A stretch of DNA of 64,000 nucleotides from Terriglobia bacterium. Lineage in GTDB: Bacteria; Acidobacteriota; Terriglobia; Terriglobales; Acidobacteriaceae. Positions 8,766-64,000 of the stretch are shown here, piece by piece. Positions within the stretch are counted from its first letter, which is position 1; each line of letters opens with the position of its first letter. The notes beneath the pieces were generated by a model. It was not told where the DNA came from, did no database searches, and saw nothing but the letters and a program-made list of their open reading frames with translations. The stretch lies in the NCBI GenBank assembly GCA_020073645.1, contig JAIQET010000013.1:1-64000 (forward strand), given 5' to 3'. Made by a program: the position numbers and the translations under genes.

Positions 8766-10001
8766 CTACGTGTGGATGTAATGCTTAACTGCGGTCATTT
8801 GGTCGAGAATCAAGTTCGGAAATTTTCGTTGCAGGATGTTCATGACTGCGTTGGTCAATTCAACGACTTCGACTCGCGAGTCGATGGTGGCCATCCATAC
8901 GTCCGGGAAATACCGGGACAACATACCCAAGCAGTAGGCAATAACCAGCATCGATGCGGGTTCTGCCAGATAGGTTTCTGGCTGCGCGATAAAATACTTT
9001 CGTCCATAGAGATCCTCCACAATATCCGGGTAGTAGCCTAGGGTCTGCTGCTCGCCCGCTTTCGCTTCCACCCTGAGCTCAAGGTAGAGGTTACTCGGAA
9101 ATTGATCGACCAGTCGTATTCCTGGGTTCTTGTCACAGAGAGATAAGAGGTTTTTCTTCTCCGAATCCAACAAACGGTTGATGCGGAAGCTGTGGATCTC
9201 GACGACCTTCTCCAGTGGTCGGTTGGCAGTAGGAGCGCTATCATTCGTTGCGCTGATTGGTACAGAGGCATAGTGGTTCACAATGTGACGGCTTGCCTCG
9301 CCGGGGTGGACGGTGGGTCGGAAGCCTAGCTCAGTCAAGCTGCCGTAAAGGTCCGGCAGAGATCTAAGCAACTCCCAACAACTAAACGGCTGATCGGCGA
9401 TCTTCTGAAGGGGTTGCAGGTCGGCACAAGGAAAGGGAAAATCACGTTCTACGTATGTGGGCCTCCCGTGGTCGTGGATTTCGGCATGAACAATGCACGC
9501 AGACGGCTGAAGGCATTCATAGACCAAGGGAAAATGCCCAGCCGGAGTGCCACCAGAACTTTTGTAGCATCGGCATTGAATAGCGGAGAAAAAATCTTGC
9601 ACTGTCTTGGCCCTGACCGCGGTCTCAGCCAAGCCCTTGTCTAGGTCCAAGCCGTGGTGATTGTGTTTGCCGGACCTACGGGCGGCGTCTAGAGAGAATG
9701 TTCCATCCCGCTTCATGAGCACTAGTGCTGCGGAAAGGGCAACACTCCCGTAGTAGAGCAGCAGAGGCCGCGTCGCAAGGTCGACCTGCTCTGATGCCAG
9801 GAAATACTGCTCAGCTTGTCGGACACAGTAGCCAATCTGGCGAGCTTGCTTCTTTAGATTTGCCTCGTGCTTGCCCTTCGGGACATTGTGAATTGATCTT
9901 AGTCGCTCAATCGTGCGCTCGACGCTCAAGAACAAACGAAGATACTTCCACACCTCACGGGAGGGATCATGGGACACTACTTCTCTCACTTCGCTTATCA
10001 T
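8766..10001 (-). CDS. YaaC-like protein
   Basis: This 411-residue protein matches the pattern of the YaaC-like family. A helix with PLLLYYGSVALSAALV follows a QAEQYF segment, and near the C-terminus comes AYCLGMLSRYFPDVW. The family is of unknown function and is found singly in firmicutes and scattered in other phyla. Its base composition is visibly less GC-rich than its neighbours, and it stands between unrelated genes, so acquisition by transfer is plausible. No partner gene is adjacent. The identification comes from remembered family motifs and is not verified. Confidence 0.6.
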   Translation of the reverse strand: MISEVREVVSHDPSREVWKYLRLFLSVERTIERLRSIHNVPKGKHEANLKKQARQIGYCVRQAEQYFLASEQVDLATRPLLLYYGSVALSAALVLMKRDGTFSLDAARRSGKHNHHGLDLDKGLAETAVRAKTVQDFFSAIQCRCYKSSGGTPAGHFPLVYECLQPSACIVHAEIHDHGRPTYVERDFPFPCADLQPLQKIADQPFSCWELLRSLPDLYGSLTELGFRPTVHPGEASRHIVNHYASVPISATNDSAPTANRPLEKVVEIHSFRINRLLDSEKKNLLSLCDKNPGIRLVDQFPSNLYLELRVEAKAGEQQTLGYYPDIVEDLYGRKYFIAQPETYLAEPASMLVIAYCLGMLSRYFPDVWMATIDSRVEVVELTNAVMNILQRKFPNLILDQMTAVKHYIHT

Positions 10002-10076: not shown

Positions 10077-11657
10077 CTAGCGAAGCGCGTCTGCCAGCTT
10101 GCCGCTCGCGATTACCTCCGCGATGCGCGCGAAGTCCTGGTACATCACGCGATCCTTGTCCATGGTCGGACACACCGCGCGGATCGCGGCGTGGGCCTGT
10201 TGCAAGTGCTTGGAGGTCTTGAGCGGGGCGAGGAAATCCAGGGCTTGGGCGGCGGCCATGGCTTCAATCGCCATCGCATTGCGGGTGTTTTCGACGATCC
10301 GCTTCAGCTTCAGCGATGCCCCCATTCCCATGGAGACAAAATCTTCCTTGTTGCCGGAGGTGGTGATCGAATCCACCGACGCGGGATGCGCTAGCACCTT
10401 GTTCTCGCTGACCAGCGCAGCGGCCGTGACCTGCGGCATCATGAAGCCGGAATTGAGACCGGCGCCGGGAGCGAGAAACGGCGGCAGGCCTTCGCTCAAG
10501 GTGGGGTTCACGAGTCGCTCCAGGCGGCGCTCCGAGATTCCGGCCAGGGCGCTGAGGGCGATGGCAAGAAAGTCCAGAACGAAAGCCACCGGCTCGCCGT
10601 GGAAATTCCCTCCGGAAAGGATGTCCCCGTCGCTTTCAACGGAGCTTCGCTCCTCGGGACGGGCGGGGGCGCCCGTCCCCACACGGGCCTTGCCGCTGGC
10701 AGGGAACACCAGCGGGTTATCCACCGCGGAGTTGGTCTCGGTTTCCATCACCTCGCGGCAATGGGTCAGGGTGTCGCGCACCGCACCGTGGACTTGCGGC
10801 ATGCAGCGCAGGGAATATGCGTCCTGCACGCGGTCACAATTGCGATGCGACTCGCGAATCTGGCTGCCTTCGAGCAGTTTGCGCAGGTTCTCGGCGGTCT
10901 TCAATTGACCCGCGTGTGGACGTGCCCGGTGAATACGAGCGTCGAAGGCGACGTCGGTGCCCTTCAGAGCATCAAGGGTCATGGCGCCGATCACGTCCGC
11001 GGAATCCACCAGCGTCTCCGCGGCGAGCAGTGCCAGGATTCCGACGCCCAGCATGCCTTGCGTGCCGTTGATCAGCGAGACGGCTTCTTTGGCCTCGAGC
11101 ACCAGCGGTTTGACTTGCGCCCGCTTCAGCGCTTCGCCGCTGGAGATGCGCGCGCCCTGGTCGTCCAGGCACTCGCCTTCGCCGATCAGCGCCAGCGCCA
11201 GATGTGCCAGCGGAGCCAGATCGCCGCTGGCCCCTACGCTGCCCTGCGACGGCACCATGGGTGTGACCCCGCGATTGAGCATCTCGCACAAGGTGTCGAT
11301 GATCGCGGCCCGGACGCCGGAGTAGCCCTTGGAAAGGGAGTTAGCGCGCAGCAGCATCATGGCGCGGGTTTCGGCGATGGAAAGCGGCTCGCCCACACCC
11401 ACGGCGTGCGAGCGCACCAGGTTGATCTGCATTTCGCGGATCTGCTCGCCGCCGATGCGGACATCGCTCAGCTTGCCAACGCCGGTGGTGATGGCGTAGG
11501 AAACCTTGTTGTTGGCGACCAGGGCGTTCACCACCGCGCGAGCCCGGTCCACGGCCGCACGAGCGTCGGGATCGAGCAGCACCGGACGGCGTTCGACGGC
11601 TACTTCGCGCACCGCTTCGAGCGTCAGATCGTTGCCGTTGATGTGGAGAGCTTTCAT
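10077..11657 (-). CDS. hutH: histidine ammonia-lyase
   Basis: This 526-residue enzyme deaminates histidine to urocanate. The autocatalytic MIO cofactor triad Ala-Ser-Gly is at 143-145 within GSVGASGDLAPLAH. Other family segments are TGVGKLSD, SLINGTQ, NPLVF and SGGNFHGEP. The family usual is about 505-510 residues; the excess is an extra segment between NPLVF and SGGNFH. Its core (about 326-339, GTGAPARPEERSS) is encoded by a family C palindromic repeat. No other hut gene is nearby. A heptad repeat separates it from the upstream thioesterase gene. Confidence 0.93.
   Translation of the reverse strand: MKALHINGNDLTLEAVREVAVERRPVLLDPDARAAVDRARAVVNALVANNKVSYAITTGVGKLSDVRIGGEQIREMQINLVRSHAVGVGEPLSIAETRAMMLLRANSLSKGYSGVRAAIIDTLCEMLNRGVTPMVPSQGSVGASGDLAPLAHLALALIGEGECLDDQGARISSGEALKRAQVKPLVLEAKEAVSLINGTQGMLGVGILALLAAETLVDSADVIGAMTLDALKGTDVAFDARIHRARPHAGQLKTAENLRKLLEGSQIRESHRNCDRVQDAYSLRCMPQVHGAVRDTLTHCREVMETETNSAVDNPLVFPASGKARVGTGAPARPEERSSVESDGDILSGGNFHGEPVAFVLDFLAIALSALAGISERRLERLVNPTLSEGLPPFLAPGAGLNSGFMMPQVTAAALVSENKVLAHPASVDSITTSGNKEDFVSMGMGASLKLKRIVENTRNAMAIEAMAAAQALDFLAPLKTSKHLQQAHAAIRAVCPTMDKDRVMYQDFARIAEVIASGKLADALR
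10641..10687. repeat. palindromic repeat family C, copy C1, inside hutH
   Basis: The sequence matches intergenic copies at 23671 and 31441: a GAGCTTCGCTC arm, then GGGACGGGCG paired with CGCCCGTCCC, then CACA. Here it is in frame and translated within histidine ammonia-lyase. Confidence 0.8.
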
Positions 11658-18846: not shown

Positions 18847-18885
18847 TTTTGCTCACGTGGGGACAGCAAGAACCACGTGGCGACG

Positions 18886-18932
18886 GCCGCCTCGGCCGTC
18901 CACCGAGCGAAGCGAGGCCCCGGGCCACCGGG
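18886..18932. repeat. GC palindrome related to family C
   Basis: GACGGCCG pairs with CGGCCGTC around a 3-base loop, followed by CACCGAGCGAAGCGAGGCC. It lies in the divergent region between glycosylase and sulfotransferase genes. Confidence 0.5.
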
Positions 18933-22718: not shown

Positions 22719-22793
22719 CCGTAGCGCCGCCGTCTCGGCGGCCACCACGGGTTCATGCCCTCAGGGGGCCGGCGAGACGCCGGCGCTACGGCT
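22719..22793. repeat. palindromic repeat family B, paired copy B1
   Basis: Two hairpin lobes face each other: GCCGCC with GGCGGC, and GCCGGCG with CGCCGGC. They are bounded by GCCGTAGCGCC and its inverse. The pair overlaps the stop of the glycosyltransferase gene and abuts the stop of the tRNA-binding gene, as in the BIME arrangement of enterobacterial REPs. Confidence 0.8.
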
Positions 22794-23628
22794 TCTTCCT
22801 TTCTGGGCTGCGCGACAGTTCCCAGGCTTTGGCGTATTTCCACGAAACGTAGACAGCGTGGTAGAGGTGCAGCAGCAGACCTTCGCGGCCGTCGAGGAAG
22901 CCGAGGCGAAAGAAATAGTTGTAGATGAACGTAAGCAGAGGCCGGACAGCGATGTTGATCACGCTGAAGCGCACGGGACCCTTGGCCACCACCATCTCGG
23001 CGCCGAGCGAGGAGTAGCGGTTCATGTGGTCGAGGTAGTCGGAGAGGGTGGGATAGGAGTGGTGGAGAAGGGTACCGCTCAGACGACCCGTTTGGCCTTG
23101 CAGTTTGATGTCTTCATGGACAAGGCGATCTTCGAACACAGCAACACCGCGGCGGAAAATGCGGAGCTTAGGGTCGGGCCAGAAGCCGCCGTGCTTGATC
23201 CACCGGCCGAGGAAGAAATTCTTGCGGAACACGGCAAATCCATCGCAGGTATTGGCATTGAACGAGACCCGATCATGGACCCAGTTCGCCTCTTCACGTG
23301 GAAGGTCGTTCCCAGCACGCCACGTCAGGACAAGATGAATCATCCGCGCGAGTTCCGGTTCCACCTCCTCATCCGCGTCCAGACTCAGAATCCAATCCCC
23401 CGCTGCCTTCTCAATCGCCGAGTTCTTCTGCGCAGCGTAGCCTTTCCATTCCTCGACGAACACTTTCGCGCCGAAGGATTTCGCGATCTCGACCGTACGG
23501 TCGGTGGAGCCGGAATCCACGACGATGATTTCGCCCCTGCCGTCACGCACGAGCGGTACCACGCTTTCGAGCGTGCGCGCGAGGTTGGTTTCTTCGTTGT
23601 AGGTGATGATGACGACCGAGAGGGTCAC
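22786..23628 (-). CDS. glycosyltransferase family 2 (WaaE/KdtX-like)
   Basis: This 280-residue GT-A glycosyltransferase begins with LSVVIITYNEETNLARTLES, followed by VVDSGSTDRTVEIA and the metal-binding LSLDADEEVEPEL. The overall pattern fits the lipopolysaccharide-core WaaE/KdtX-like branch. It is peripheral to the inner membrane and lacks clear membrane helices. Its TAG stop lies within the family B repeat. No other envelope-sugar gene is adjacent. Confidence 0.88.
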   Translation of the reverse strand: MTLSVVIITYNEETNLARTLESVVPLVRDGRGEIIVVDSGSTDRTVEIAKSFGAKVFVEEWKGYAAQKNSAIEKAAGDWILSLDADEEVEPELARMIHLVLTWRAGNDLPREEANWVHDRVSFNANTCDGFAVFRKNFFLGRWIKHGGFWPDPKLRIFRRGVAVFEDRLVHEDIKLQGQTGRLSGTLLHHSYPTLSDYLDHMNRYSSLGAEMVVAKGPVRFSVINIAVRPLLTFIYNYFFRLGFLDGREGLLLHLYHAVYVSWKYAKAWELSRSPERKKP

Positions 23629-23670
23629 GGGAAGAGGATAGCGGTTTCCGCGCCGCGTGGGAATGCACTG

Positions 23671-23751
23671 CCGAGCTTCGCTCGGCGGGACGGGCGAGGG
23701 CGCCCGTCCTCCACACCAGCCCGGTGGCCGGCGGGACGCCGGCGCTACGGC
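23671..23751. repeat. adjacent family C and family B repeats (C2, B2)
   Basis: C2 (23671-23715) has the GAGCTTCGCTC arm and the GACGGGCG/CGCCCGTC hairpin. B2 (23724-23751) has GCCGGCG/CGCCGGC and ends CGCTACGGC. Together they occupy most of the 124-base gap between cysE and the glycosyltransferase gene. Confidence 0.8.
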
Positions 23752-23752
23752 T

Positions 23753-24466
23753 TTATATTCCGGCGCCGTCGGAGACGGAGTCCCAATCTTTGTCGATGTC
23801 CAGGTCGGGTTCGGGGGCTAGGACTGCTTGCGTGTGTTCCTGCAGCTTCTCGCGGAGTTCGTGGACTTCGGCGGCGAGTCTTATGAAGACGTCGGAGAGT
23901 GGGTCGCTGATGTCCTTGGGATCGGTGATGACTACGCGTTTGCCGTGGCGTAAGACGATATGGCCGGGGACACCGACGATGGTGGAGTTGTCCGGCACCG
24001 AGCGCAGCACGACCGAACCTGCGCCCACGCGAGAGTTTTCGCCGATGGTGATGTTGCCCAGCAGCTTGGCGCCGGAGCCGATGCTCACGTTGTTGCCGAT
24101 GGTCGGGTGGCGCTTGCCGTGCTCTTTGCCGGTGCCGCCGAGGGTCACACCCTGAAAGATGGTGACGTCGTCGCCGACGATGCTGGTCTCGCCTATCACC
24201 ACACCCATGCCGTGATCGATGAACAGGCGGTGGCCGATCTGGGCGCCGGGATGGATCTCGATGCCGGTAAACAAGCGCGCCCATTGCGAGAAAAATCTTG
24301 CCGGGAAGCGCATGCCGTGGCGCCATAGCCAGTGATTCACTCGGTGGAACCAGAGCGCGTGCAATCCTGGGTAACAGAGCAAGACTTCCAGGTAGGAACG
24401 GGCGGCGGGATCGCGCTCGAAGACTGCTGCGATGTCCTCGCGGACTGATTTGAAGAAGCGAATCAT
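23753..24466 (-). CDS. cysE: serine O-acetyltransferase
   Basis: This 237-residue enzyme makes O-acetylserine from serine and acetyl-CoA, the first committed step of cysteine synthesis. An N-terminal helical domain is followed by a left-handed beta-helix of hexapeptide repeats. It contains [20 protein letters not shown], with the catalytic His/Asp pair, and [17 protein letters not shown]. The start overlaps the cysK stop in an ATGA, so the two are translationally coupled. The C-terminal tail probably contacts CysK. Confidence 0.95.
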
Positions 24467-30392: not shown

Positions 30393-30418
30393 GTGGCCGG
30401 CGGGACGCCGGCGCTACG
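30393..30418. repeat. palindromic repeat family B, copy B3
   Basis: A single lobe with GCCGGCG/CGCCGGC and CGCTACG lies directly upstream of the ribosome binding site of the DinB-like gene. Confidence 0.75.
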
Positions 30419-30432
30419 ATAAGGAGAGACGT

Positions 30433-30912: not shown

Positions 30913-31028
30913 TCTCGGGAAGCAAGGCTCTCGCCTCGCGATTCAGGTTTCCCGATTACTTCGAGTAAAATGAACGGTTCTGAGCCGAATCTGGCGGCTT
31001 GCGAGCCGCAGCGACGAGGATCACCGCA

Positions 31029-31367
31029 TTGGCCACGACCGAAACCGCAACCTCCACGCAAACTCCTCCCCAGCTTCCCCATCACAAAGTGAAGATCAAG
31101 AAGCTGGGACAGCGCTCCTGCAACGAGAAGGACGACAAGGGCAAGTTTTGCGGCGGGCATCTGAAGCGCTGGTACTACATGAGTGACGCCGTGGAGCAGG
31201 CGTGCGGCGACGTGGAGAAGGCCTGGGGGCCGAACGCCGAGGTTTATCGCTGCGAGTTCTGCAAGACCCTGTATTTGCCCAACCCGGAGGATGTGCGTGG
31301 CATCAATGTGGCGGGGAAGGGACGAACCTCGGTGTTCGGATTGACGGTTCCGACGAAGGAGAAGTAG
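31029..31367 (+). CDS. small zinc-ribbon-like protein
   Basis: This 112-residue hydrophilic protein has cysteines at SCNEKDDKGKFCGGH, ACGD and YRCEFCKTLYLP. The C-terminal CxxC with the earlier cysteines suggests a zinc-binding fold. I chose the TTG at 31029 because GAGGA lies 8 bases upstream; an alternative start at 30999 is possible. The body is lysine-rich. No known family is recognised. It precedes the LeuA-like synthase by 129 bases with a family C repeat between. Confidence 0.6.
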   Translation: MATTETATSTQTPPQLPHHKVKIKKLGQRSCNEKDDKGKFCGGHLKRWYYMSDAVEQACGDVEKAWGPNAEVYRCEFCKTLYLPNPEDVRGINVAGKGRTSVFGLTVPTKEK

Positions 31368-31440
31368 CAGCGAGAGCGAGGCTTTGGTCCTTGGGGAAGG
31401 GCGGCGCGTGGGGCGCTTACCCGACATCATCAAAACCTGC

Positions 31441-31484
31441 CGAGCGGGGCTCGGCCCGGACGGGCGAGGTCGCCCGTCCCCACA
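31441..31484. repeat. palindromic repeat family C, copy C3
   Basis: CGAGCGGGGCTCG arm, then GACGGGCG/CGCCCGTC hairpin and CCACA. It ends 12 bases before the GTG start of the next gene. Confidence 0.8.
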
Positions 31485-31496
31485 TATGCATTCATC

Positions 31497-32747
31497 GTGA
31501 AAGTTTCTGAGCTCATCTACGACTGGAACCAGATTCATCCCGCGTCGCTGCGGCCGTCGGGGCATGTTCTGCTCAACGACGAGACCTTGCGCGACGGGCT
31601 GCAGTCGCCTTCGGTGCGTGATCCCTCGATCGAAGAAAAGATCCACATCCTGCACTTGATGGAGGCGCTGGGGATCAACTCGCTCGACCTGGGTTTGCCG
31701 GGCGCGGGTCCGCGGGCGGTGGAGCACACGGAAGCGCTGGCGCGCGAGATCGTGCAGCACAAGATGAAAATCCGCGCCAATTGCGCGGCCCGCACGCACC
31801 AGAACGATATTCGGCCGGTTGCCGAGATCGTGCAGCGCACGGGACTCAACATTGAGGCCGCTACGTTTCTTGGGTCGAGTCCCATCCGCCGCTATACCGA
31901 AGGCTGGACCGACGACTTCCTTTTGCAGACCACCGAGAGCGCGGTGAAATACGCGGTGTCCCTGGGGCTCGAGGTCATGTACGTGACCGAAGACACCACG
32001 CGCTGCGATCCGGAGATGGTGAAGCGGCTCTACTCCGCGGCCATCAATTGCGGCGCCCGTGCGATTGTGGTCTGCGACACCGCGGGACACGCGACGCCGA
32101 TGGGCACGTTCGCCCTGGTGCGGTTCATCGTGGATGAAGTGGTGAAGCCTTCGGGGGAGAAAATCCGGGTGGACTGGCATGGTCATTGCGATCGTGGCCT
32201 GGCCATTGCCAACTCGATGGCGGCATTGGTGGCGGGAGCCGAATGCGTGCATGCCTGCGCGCTGGGCCTCGGAGAGCGCGTGGGCAACACCCAGATGGAC
32301 CAGATGCTGGTCAACCTGAAGCTGATGGGCATTCCCCCGTGGGGCGAGCAGGACCTGACCAAGCTGAAAGACTATTGTCAGGCGGTGTCGCGGGCCACGG
32401 GCGTTCCGATTCCAGCGAACTACCCGGTGGTGGGCGAGGACGCTTTCCGCACCGCGACCGGAGTGCATGCGGCGGCGGTGATCAAGGCGTACAAGAAGAA
32501 CGACATCGAACTGGCGAACACGGTCTATTCCGGTGTGCCTTCGCACGTGTTCGGTCTGGAGCAGGTGATTGATATCGGCCCCATGAGCGGCAAGTCGAAC
32601 GTGCTGTTCTGGCTGGAGCGCCACGGCCTGCCCGTGGCCGACGATATTGTGGAGCGCATCTACAAGCGCGCCAAGGCGTCGAACCATACCTTGAGCCACG
32701 CCGAGATTTTGGAGTGCGTGCAGACGGCGGGGGCCGCGTCTGACTGA
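31497..32747 (+). CDS. isopropylmalate/homocitrate synthase-like (HMGL-like) enzyme
   Basis: This 416-residue TIM-barrel Claisen-condensing enzyme has the N-terminal NDETLRDGLQSP motif and the metal ligands in VDWHGHCDRG. A C-terminal helical part contains GVHAAAVIKAYKK. It lacks the LeuA dimer/regulatory domain, so it resembles homocitrate/re-citrate synthase-like or 2-isopropylmalate-synthase-like proteins. It starts with GTG at 31497. The ribosome binding site is poor because the family C repeat lies immediately upstream. The keto-acid substrate is not determined. Confidence 0.8.
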   Translation: MKVSELIYDWNQIHPASLRPSGHVLLNDETLRDGLQSPSVRDPSIEEKIHILHLMEALGINSLDLGLPGAGPRAVEHTEALAREIVQHKMKIRANCAARTHQNDIRPVAEIVQRTGLNIEAATFLGSSPIRRYTEGWTDDFLLQTTESAVKYAVSLGLEVMYVTEDTTRCDPEMVKRLYSAAINCGARAIVVCDTAGHATPMGTFALVRFIVDEVVKPSGEKIRVDWHGHCDRGLAIANSMAALVAGAECVHACALGLGERVGNTQMDQMLVNLKLMGIPPWGEQDLTKLKDYCQAVSRATGVPIPANYPVVGEDAFRTATGVHAAAVIKAYKKNDIELANTVYSGVPSHVFGLEQVIDIGPMSGKSNVLFWLERHGLPVADDIVERIYKRAKASNHTLSHAEILECVQTAGAASD

Positions 32748-35902: not shown

Positions 35903-35966
35903 GGGATCCTTCGACTCCGCAACGCCCATTCGCAAGCGAATGGGCGTTGCTGCGCTCAGGATGACA
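35903..35966. repeat. family A repeat split by a perfect hairpin, copy A6
   Basis: The two halves of a family A copy (GGATCCTTCGACTCC and GCGCTCAGGATGACA) flank a perfect 14-bp stem with a CAAG loop (35919-35950). Confidence 0.75.
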
Positions 35967-60972: not shown

Positions 60973-61000
60973 TTGGCATGGATGGTGTGGGGACAGATTG

Positions 61001-61027
61001 TGTGGGGACGGGTCTCCGACCCGTCCC
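61001..61027. repeat. palindrome related to family C, copy C4
   Basis: GGGGACGGGT pairs with ACCCGTCCC around TCTCCG. It precedes the rng terminator. Confidence 0.55.
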
Positions 61028-61028
61028 G

Positions 61029-61055
61029 GCCGGGCGAAAAGCCCGGCATTTTTTT
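61029..61055 (+). terminator. rho-independent terminator of the cell-shape operon
   Basis: GCCGGGC pairs with GCCCGGC (61029-61035 with 61041-61047) around a GAAAA loop and is followed by ATTTTTTT. It lies 56 bases after the rng stop. Confidence 0.9.
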
Positions 61056-62819: not shown

Positions 62820-62843
62820 GTGGCCGGCGGGACGCCGGCGCTA
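62820..62843. repeat. palindromic repeat family B, copy B4
   Basis: GCCGGCGGGACGCCGGCGCT with the CTA that forms the TAG stop of the oxidoreductase gene. Confidence 0.75.
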
Positions 62844-64000
62844 CTTCTTCAGATCTTTCAGTATTTCGCGGGCGGCATTGGCGCCGGAGCCTCCGGTTAA
62901 GCCAGCGCCGGGATGCGTGCCCGAGCCGCACAGGTACAAATTTCGAATCGGGGTGCGGTAGCGTGCCCAGTCGAGCAGCGGACGCATGGTGAAGAACTGG
63001 TCGAGGGCGAGTTCACCGTGGAAGATATGGCCTCCAGTGAGCCCATAGGTGTCTTCCAGATCCTGTGGAGTGATGATCTGGTGGGTCAGGATCAGTTCGG
63101 GCAGGTTGGGCGCGTACTGCGCGATGGTCTTGACTACGGTGTCGCCTAACGCCACGCGCTGGCTCTCCCAATCACTGTTCTTCAGCTTGAAGGGCGCGTA
63201 CTGCACGTAAATGGACATGACGTGCTTGCCCGGAGGCGCCAGCGAGGGATCGGTCAACGAGGGGATGGCGATGTCCAGATACGGCTGGCGCGAAAAGTTG
63301 CCATACTTGGATTCGTCGAAGGCGCGCTCGAGGTAGTCAATCTCTGGGCCGATGTGAATGCGGCCGCTCAGCGCGTCGGTGCTTCCGTTCAGCGCAGTGA
63401 ACCGGGGCAGACCGGAAAGCGCCAGGTTGACCTTGGCCACCGTGCCCGGCGTGCGGTAATGCTGGAGCTTCATGACGAAATCAGGCGTGAGGTGGATGGG
63501 ATCGACCAGCTTGAGCAGGGTGCGCTTGGGATCGGCGTTGGAGATGATGGCCTTGGCGCTGATTTCTTCGCCGGTGGAGAGCACGACACTGGTGGCGGCG
63601 CCGTCCTTCACACGGACTTCAATCACTTCGGCGCTGGAGCGGATTTCGGCACCGGCCTGCTTGGCGGCGGCGGCCATGGCTTGCGTCACCGAGCCGATTC
63701 CGCCGGCAGCGAAGAAGGCTGAGCCCGCAGGATGCTCGTCGCCGGCAGCGCGGATGAGAAGAACCAGGCTGCTGCCGGCGGACCACGGTCCGAAGAACGT
63801 GCCGAAAATACCGCGCGCGGCGATGGTGGCGCGCAGCAGTTCAGTCTCGAAGAATTCCGCGACCAGATCGGCAACCGCCATGGGGCCCCAGCGCAGCAGG
63901 CGGTACATATCTTTCTTGCCCAGCTTGCGAATGGCGCGCCCGGTCTGGAGCATGCCCCAGAGGTCGCCTTTGCTGGGGTTATCGATATTTGGGGGGACAA
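62841..64000 (-). CDS. FAD-dependent phytoene-desaturase-like oxidoreductase (5' end outside the window)
   Basis: The frame is open to the window edge, so the N-terminal FAD-binding Rossmann motif lies outside; at least 386 residues are present. The segments AAGGIGSVTQAMAAAAKQAG and KAIISNADPKRTLLKLV, and the C-terminal NLYLCGSGTHPGAGLTGGSG (FAD-contacting), identify a phytoene-dehydrogenase/PYROXD2-like flavoprotein. Its reaction is not known. The stop codon lies in family B repeat B4. Confidence 0.88.
   Translation of the reverse strand, partial: VPPNIDNPSKGDLWGMLQTGRAIRKLGKKDMYRLLRWGPMAVADLVAEFFETELLRATIAARGIFGTFFGPWSAGSSLVLLIRAAGDEHPAGSAFFAAGGIGSVTQAMAAAAKQAGAEIRSSAEVIEVRVKDGAATSVVLSTGEEISAKAIISNADPKRTLLKLVDPIHLTPDFVMKLQHYRTPGTVAKVNLALSGLPRFTALNGSTDALSGRIHIGPEIDYLERAFDESKYGNFSRQPYLDIAIPSLTDPSLAPPGKHVMSIYVQYAPFKLKNSDWESQRVALGDTVVKTIAQYAPNLPELILTHQIITPQDLEDTYGLTGGHIFHGELALDQFFTMRPLLDWARYRTPIRNLYLCGSGTHPGAGLTGGSGANAAREILKDLKK

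Follow-up and report, generated by a model that had tools for sequence, protein, structure and literature searches.

Two groups of described repeats come close to the element studied here. Rickettsia palindromic elements (RPEs) measure about 150 bp; a CGTC tag is found on two of them, RPE-4 and RPE-6 (Ogata et al. 2000, 2002; PMC10969869, PMC3733652). Repetitive extragenic palindromes (REPs) with a GTAG tag include intragenic ones in O. terrae, Thauera, and others (Di Nocera et al. 2013, PMC3733652). The genes that these enter are often DNA repair genes (uvrA, uvrD, recB), and recB of X. campestris and X. oryzae was entered at about the same site (PMC3733652). In-frame palindromes were first termed unique to Rickettsia, in the title of Ogata et al. 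(2002), and were later met as scattered intragenic REPs. On Acidobacteria, the accessible portions of PMC3733652 mention only transposase genes. Here we describe a 48-nt, two-hairpin element in frame within hutH, the histidine ammonia-lyase gene, on a 64,000-nt stretch from a Terriglobia bacterium (GenBank assembly GCA_020073645.1, contig JAIQET010000013.1, positions 1 to 64,000, forward strand; “the window”), together with its copies in this and related genomes. The assembly holding the window (4.4 Mb, 123 contigs) is close to metagenome-assembled genomes of Terriglobia/Acidobacteria.

As far as the excerpted descriptions of RPEs go, the acidobacterial element is like them a dispersed palindrome that stands in frame in many unrelated genes and adds a peptide to the proteins, which probably remain functional. 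It is set apart from RPEs as those excerpts describe them by its 48 nt, its GTRG tag, its phylum, and the entry of the same loop in several lineages. The likeness to Rickettsia proposed in the first-pass annotation thus holds for the way of working and fails for size and tag; by analogy, the element would work like RPEs, and membership among them is not implied. CGTC does occur in the element, within a stem and hence not as the unpaired tag of CGTC-tagged REPs. With GTAG-tagged REPs, as portrayed in the accessible portions of PMC3733652, it shares a short hairpin, genome-wide spread, and some copies in open reading frames (ORFs), as well as a high copy number (at least 83) with most examined copies failing the coding test; its tag is GTAG-like, being GTAG in 83 and GTGG in 100 of 206 copies. 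In contrast to those REPs, the unit has two unlike hairpins and carries GTGG more often than GTAG, and it flanks on both sides none of 43 loci for Y1/REP-associated tyrosine transposases (RAYTs) in nine carrier genomes, a sample covering part of their Y1 loci. Repeated entry shown by a tree and one strongly favored frame are likewise not reported in those portions of the paper.

A literature search found no account of such elements in proteins of Acidobacteriota; most subscription papers lay outside it, so this is not proof of novelty. Intragenic REP- and RPE-like elements are known, and this one is apparently undescribed in Acidobacteriota. In this apparently soil-dwelling group, many genomes have in-frame palindromes; some sites are empty, some copies are reversed, and the HutH, RecG, and SelD loops show repeated entries. 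Whether mobile repeats supply new protein segments becomes a testable question through close species and enzymes with and without the loop.

The element inside HutH

We put at roughly 0.85 the probability that the segment in hutH is a dispersed, nonautonomous, REP-like element of 48 nt inserted in frame in a HutH loop and that the same filter operates genome-wide. The element, consisting of a GTRG tag, hairpin 1, and hairpin 2, would insert in frame at the tip of a beta-hairpin loop. With a length divisible by three and frames that mostly lack stops, it adds at least 16 residues and leaves the gene unbroken. Insertions in the permissive loop would survive while others would be purged, and the same survival filter would account for the copies found in other housekeeping enzymes, likewise in loops. 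The hairpins would decay later while the frame stays, suggesting that the protein tolerates the peptide but does not need it. The element is presumably moved by a transposase that acts in trans.

HutH was identified by profile searches in which NF006871 and TIGR01225 both scored above their curated cutoffs. Positions Y54, H84, the ASG triad, N197, Y281, R284, F352, and E418, the known catalytic positions of the family, showed no variation in 43 homologues, so that at the level of sequence they are intact in this HutH. The segment from NPLVF to SGGNFHG reads PASGKARVGTGAPARPEERSSVESDGDIL and includes RVGTGAPARPEERSSV, which is encoded by the repeat. The in-frame codons CGT GTG GGG ACG GGC GCC CCC GCC CGT CCC GAG GAG CGA AGC TCC give RVGTGAPARPEERSS, and one peptide expected from the insert would be VGTGAPARPEER. 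Codons and the covariance model R1, built from 11 copies, agree that the repeat lies in frame within HutH, as the first-pass annotation had it; the limits given there, 10641-10687, are slightly offset from those of the model (Table 1). We infer that the insert is translated and that the enzyme is active. The same genome also encodes, elsewhere (G000:C42:2379-3866), another ammonia-lyase homologue, a distant one with about 43% identity to HutH.

The enzyme shares its fold and conserved sequence with Pseudomonas putida HutH (1b8f, 1gkm), which is without the loop extension. Alignment with 1gkm left a single large gap, of 22 residues, at the insert, which bears out the earlier estimate of about 20 additional residues. 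These 22 residues fall between approximately chain residues 319 and 320 of the P. putida enzyme, about ten residues before Phe329, the residue mutated in 1eb4 and 1gk2 (mutants F329A and F329G). An AlphaFold model of our HutH matches the solved HutH structures, with a mean predicted local distance difference test (pLDDT) score of 75.9; the loop, at a pLDDT below 50 and predicted to be disordered, lies between strands 316-318 and 345-347. In this model, placement of the insert in a surface loop is supported, not proven, and is consistent with the tolerant loop that had been predicted for the site.

The element consists of a GTGG tag, then a 10-bp hairpin with a 4-nt loop, and then a smaller hairpin with a GAA loop. 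Across 206 distinct copies from the genomes sampled, conservation spans about 48 nt and drops beyond either border, and the tag is GTGG or GTAG in 183. An initial pattern scan had returned many copies with paired stem changes. In the covariation test, 7 of 15 pairs were altered on both sides, which 0 of 500 shuffles reached. Both helices varied in this double-sided way, helix 2 at 5 of 6 pairs; the test is supportive and not independent, in that the structure had been drawn on the same rows. No Rfam family reached its gathering score between window positions 10000 and 32000.

Copies in other genes and their reading frame

In a first look, we scored no more than 150 candidates per genome. Copies were sampled best matches first, so that the counts are minimum values and the coding fractions are subject to bias. 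The covariance model found at least 83 copies in the genome of the window; most genomes with the insert in HutH had 26 to 121. Some genomes without the element in HutH had 8 to 22 copies, two had 114 and 52, and the model found none in three tested.

A copy was called coding when the ORF flanks on both sides looked coding in one frame, at either of two thresholds. By this measure, 63 of the 206 copies stand in frame within genes (47 at the stricter threshold), as do 15 to 17 of 60 examined copies in the genome of the window. Curated models identify its host genes there as those for UvrC, PcrA/UvrD, RecG, MutS, NrdJ, RsmI, Tgt, a UbiD-type decarboxylase, and a molybdenum hydroxylase, and domains add MutS2. 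In relatives, Pfam domains point to MnmG, CarB, GyrB, PurH, SelA, and a SelD-like protein. The single case of the first-pass annotation is in fact part of a genome-wide habit, recurrent at the HutH loop.

Two of these hosts have loops with and without the element. Between the DEQHRFGV and TATPIPRT motifs, the loop of RecG has 14 residues in two genomes, counted from the KLMKK start, and up to 68 elsewhere; copies there occur in sense and antisense orientation, and also in tandem and nested. In SelD, about 8 genomes have the loop without the element and about 12 have it with the element, which stands in the same frame. We read both loops, again by sequence comparison, as having been entered repeatedly. 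The latter host, which resembles aminoimidazole ribonucleotide synthase, was provisionally called SelD from its TDITGFG motif and Pfam domains; an alternative label, ThiL, proved wrong.

Several of these loops have features of their own. Two recG loops, L375 and L376 (genomes G116 and G169), of 68 and 67 residues, hold several element copies, one of them with both orientations, in an apparent stepwise growth of one loop. In the recG gene of the sister species (L360, genome G001), the loop has nested partial copies, VGTASSATSTHVGTGHVGTGASPVPSERSER; one internal TAA is reported in the region, either at an end or as a real break. The selD loops L398, L400, and L389 also hold ACGACCAACGACCAACGACC-like stretches (peptide NDQRPTTND), another repeat type at the same site.

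The in-gene copies strongly favor one reading frame. By phase, the 42 sense copies divide into 36, 2, and 4, and the antisense copies into 6, 5, and 10. The second sense phase is open as often as the favored one, although it was rarely used: over all 206 copies, the sense phases are free of stops in 191, 191, and 120. The bias has a P value of 2.6e-10 overall and of 2.6e-4 at the stricter threshold when each named family of host genes contributes a single copy. Because the antisense phase is not fixed, the bias is unlike a target-site effect, which should fix that phase too. The VGTGALARPAERSSA-like peptide of the favored frame contains no Cys and no Trp and is nearly neutral. We infer that selection at the protein level for this peptide causes the bias. 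A broader proposal, which we hold tentatively and at somewhat less than even odds, is that this is a lineage-wide protein-coding palindromic element whose favored frame is itself selected for a loop-compatible peptide, so that across Terriglobia housekeeping enzymes would recurrently gain new loop segments from it, at a few permissive sites.

The HutH loop across relatives

Among 119 HutH proteins, the loop mostly has 9 to 14 residues, and that of carriers has 25 to 29; deeper clades have another kind, of about 18 to 23 residues (KKVGAP...). The segment is therefore not one that all relatives share in codons foreign to the repeat: most have the short loops or the different longer ones, and carriers have the repeat’s own DNA. 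Ten hutH loci hold the element forward, all in one frame and at nearly the same place, and one (L112) holds a reversed copy. When the loop columns were left out of the HutH tree, presence and absence changed at least 7 times, with carriers interleaved with noncarriers and with well-supported carrier/noncarrier sister pairs (L059/L063, L136/L108, and L005/L177). Forcing the carriers together cost 204 log units in the approximately unbiased (AU) test (p-AU of 7e-41), so that a single carrier clade is rejected. Given that carriers are not one clade and that one copy is reversed, we conclude from these sequences that the element probably entered the hutH site repeatedly, in one case in reverse, and that recombination may have played some part.

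In two carriers, L096 and L062, the insert has decayed, with the frame kept and the sequence not. Loops L105, L011, and L003 were weighed as further decayed copies, a reading that could be demonstrated for none of the three; the element model has no match in G149, the genome of L105. The noncarrier L076 has a 29-residue loop with a tandem KKNDA repeat, and hence the hutH loop also grows by ordinary tandem duplication.

Recombination could contribute to this pattern. Gene conversion with genomic copies, or exchange of a small hutH fragment between species, might refresh, flip, duplicate, or transfer the element without new transposition. This would fit the identical insert in the sister species G001, in which 42 of 42 nt of the element are the same, against 88% identity over the remainder of hutH, and the loop codons around the element differ; it would also fit the tandem, nested, and two-orientation copies in recG. 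However, the exact loop variant of our hutH (L001; GGGG) occurs once only in its own genome among near-perfect copies, an exchanged fragment would need to be almost the loop alone, and first entries are not explained. As a full account, we consider recombination unlikely.

Quite improbable, in our judgment, is that the peptide was selected because it gives HutH a new function, such as a regulatory or oligomer contact, for which the element is kept. Such a role would agree with the strong preference for a single frame and with the intact insert in the two closest species, but close relatives lack the insert and the decayed copies hold frame and not sequence. The presence of the same peptide in unrelated enzymes makes a HutH-specific role unlikely, and neutral tolerance of the insert appears most likely from these comparisons.

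Little room, likewise, can be given to one ancient insertion in the ancestor of the group, inherited and deleted many times, with the shared frame and orientation reflecting common origin; we rate it just below a functional role. The agreement of the ten forward copies speaks for it, since a coincidence of frame would be unlikely for random independent events in the absence of selection on the peptide. But the same frame is favored in many other genes, one reversed copy exists, and the AU test rejects one carrier clade, although it does not itself exclude losses. Carrier L179 stands alone within a large clade of 12-aa loops. Absence also looks ancestral in noncarriers such as L063, whose loop, VKNLKQADGQGDVL, fits the ordinary 14-aa type of other clades; L063 thus apparently never held the element. 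Chance resemblance of an ordinary long loop to the repeat can be given next to no weight, for although the loop is naturally variable and the KKVGAP... loops have VG at a similar place, a 48-nt match with two hairpins (E value, 8e-11) and at least 83 genomic copies stand against it.

Several observations weigh against in-frame insertion of a mobile REP-like element under a common survival filter. The insert is perfectly identical between two species 12% apart (P of about 0.005), which would not be expected had it been inherited by descent and decayed neutrally; conversion or constraint may be involved. Outside genes checked by hidden Markov models, the coding calls use a codon-usage model trained mainly on HutH. 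AlphaFold confidence is low across residues 316 to 352, beyond the insert alone. The lack of any two-sided flanking among the 43 Y1/RAYT loci, mentioned above, counts here as well, and several Y1 transposase genes are flanked by other REPs (GTAG-CCCGGCG type).

Probable mobilization and repeats of the window

Since Y1 genes are flanked by other REPs, REP/RAYT systems exist in these genomes. By analogy with such systems, the GTRG tag and hairpin suggest that the element is mobilized in trans by an enzyme of the Y1/RAYT type. The genome of the window has four strong Y1 transposase genes (L160 to L163), most of them flanked by GTAG-CCC(G/A)GC hairpins; these are apparently RAYT/REP units of a different REP family.

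Table 1. Positions in the window of hutH, the parts of its insert, and further copies of the element
Feature	Position	Strand	Basis
hutH, histidine ammonia-lyase, 526 aa, including translated insert	10077..11657	-	ORF; NF006871 686 bits, TIGR01225 665 bits
Two-hairpin element, 48 nt, 16 codons, translated RVGTGAPARPEERSSV = HutH residues 325-340	10638..10685	-	covariance model R1, 68.6 bits, E 8.1e-11
Hairpin 2, GGAGC-GAA-GCTCC	10641..10653	-	from sequence
Hairpin 1, perfect 10-bp stem GGGACGGGCG/CGCCCGTCCC, 4-nt loop	10656..10679	-	
GTGG tag 5' of hairpin 1	10679..10682	-	GTGG in 100/206, GTAG in 83/206 copies
Diverged element copy	18874..18919	+	R1, 35.1 bits
Second element copy, between glycosyltransferase-like ORF (ends 23628) and serine-acetyltransferase-like ORF (starts 23753)	23669..23715	-	covariance model
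Third element copy, between ORFs 30999-31367 (+) and 31497-32747 (+)	31438..31486	-	covariance model
Diverged element copy, hairpin 2 differs	60999..61048	+	R1, 42.4 bits

Other palindromes also occur in the window. A second, GTAG-tagged family, GTAGCGCCGGCGTCCCGCCGGCCAC, is found at 22765-22799, 23724-23758, 30393-30427, and 62820-62854 and sometimes adjoins the element studied here. A hairpin outside the element family, with a perfect 14-bp stem (GCAACGCCCATTCG-CAAG-CGAATGGGCGTTGC), lies at 35919-35950.
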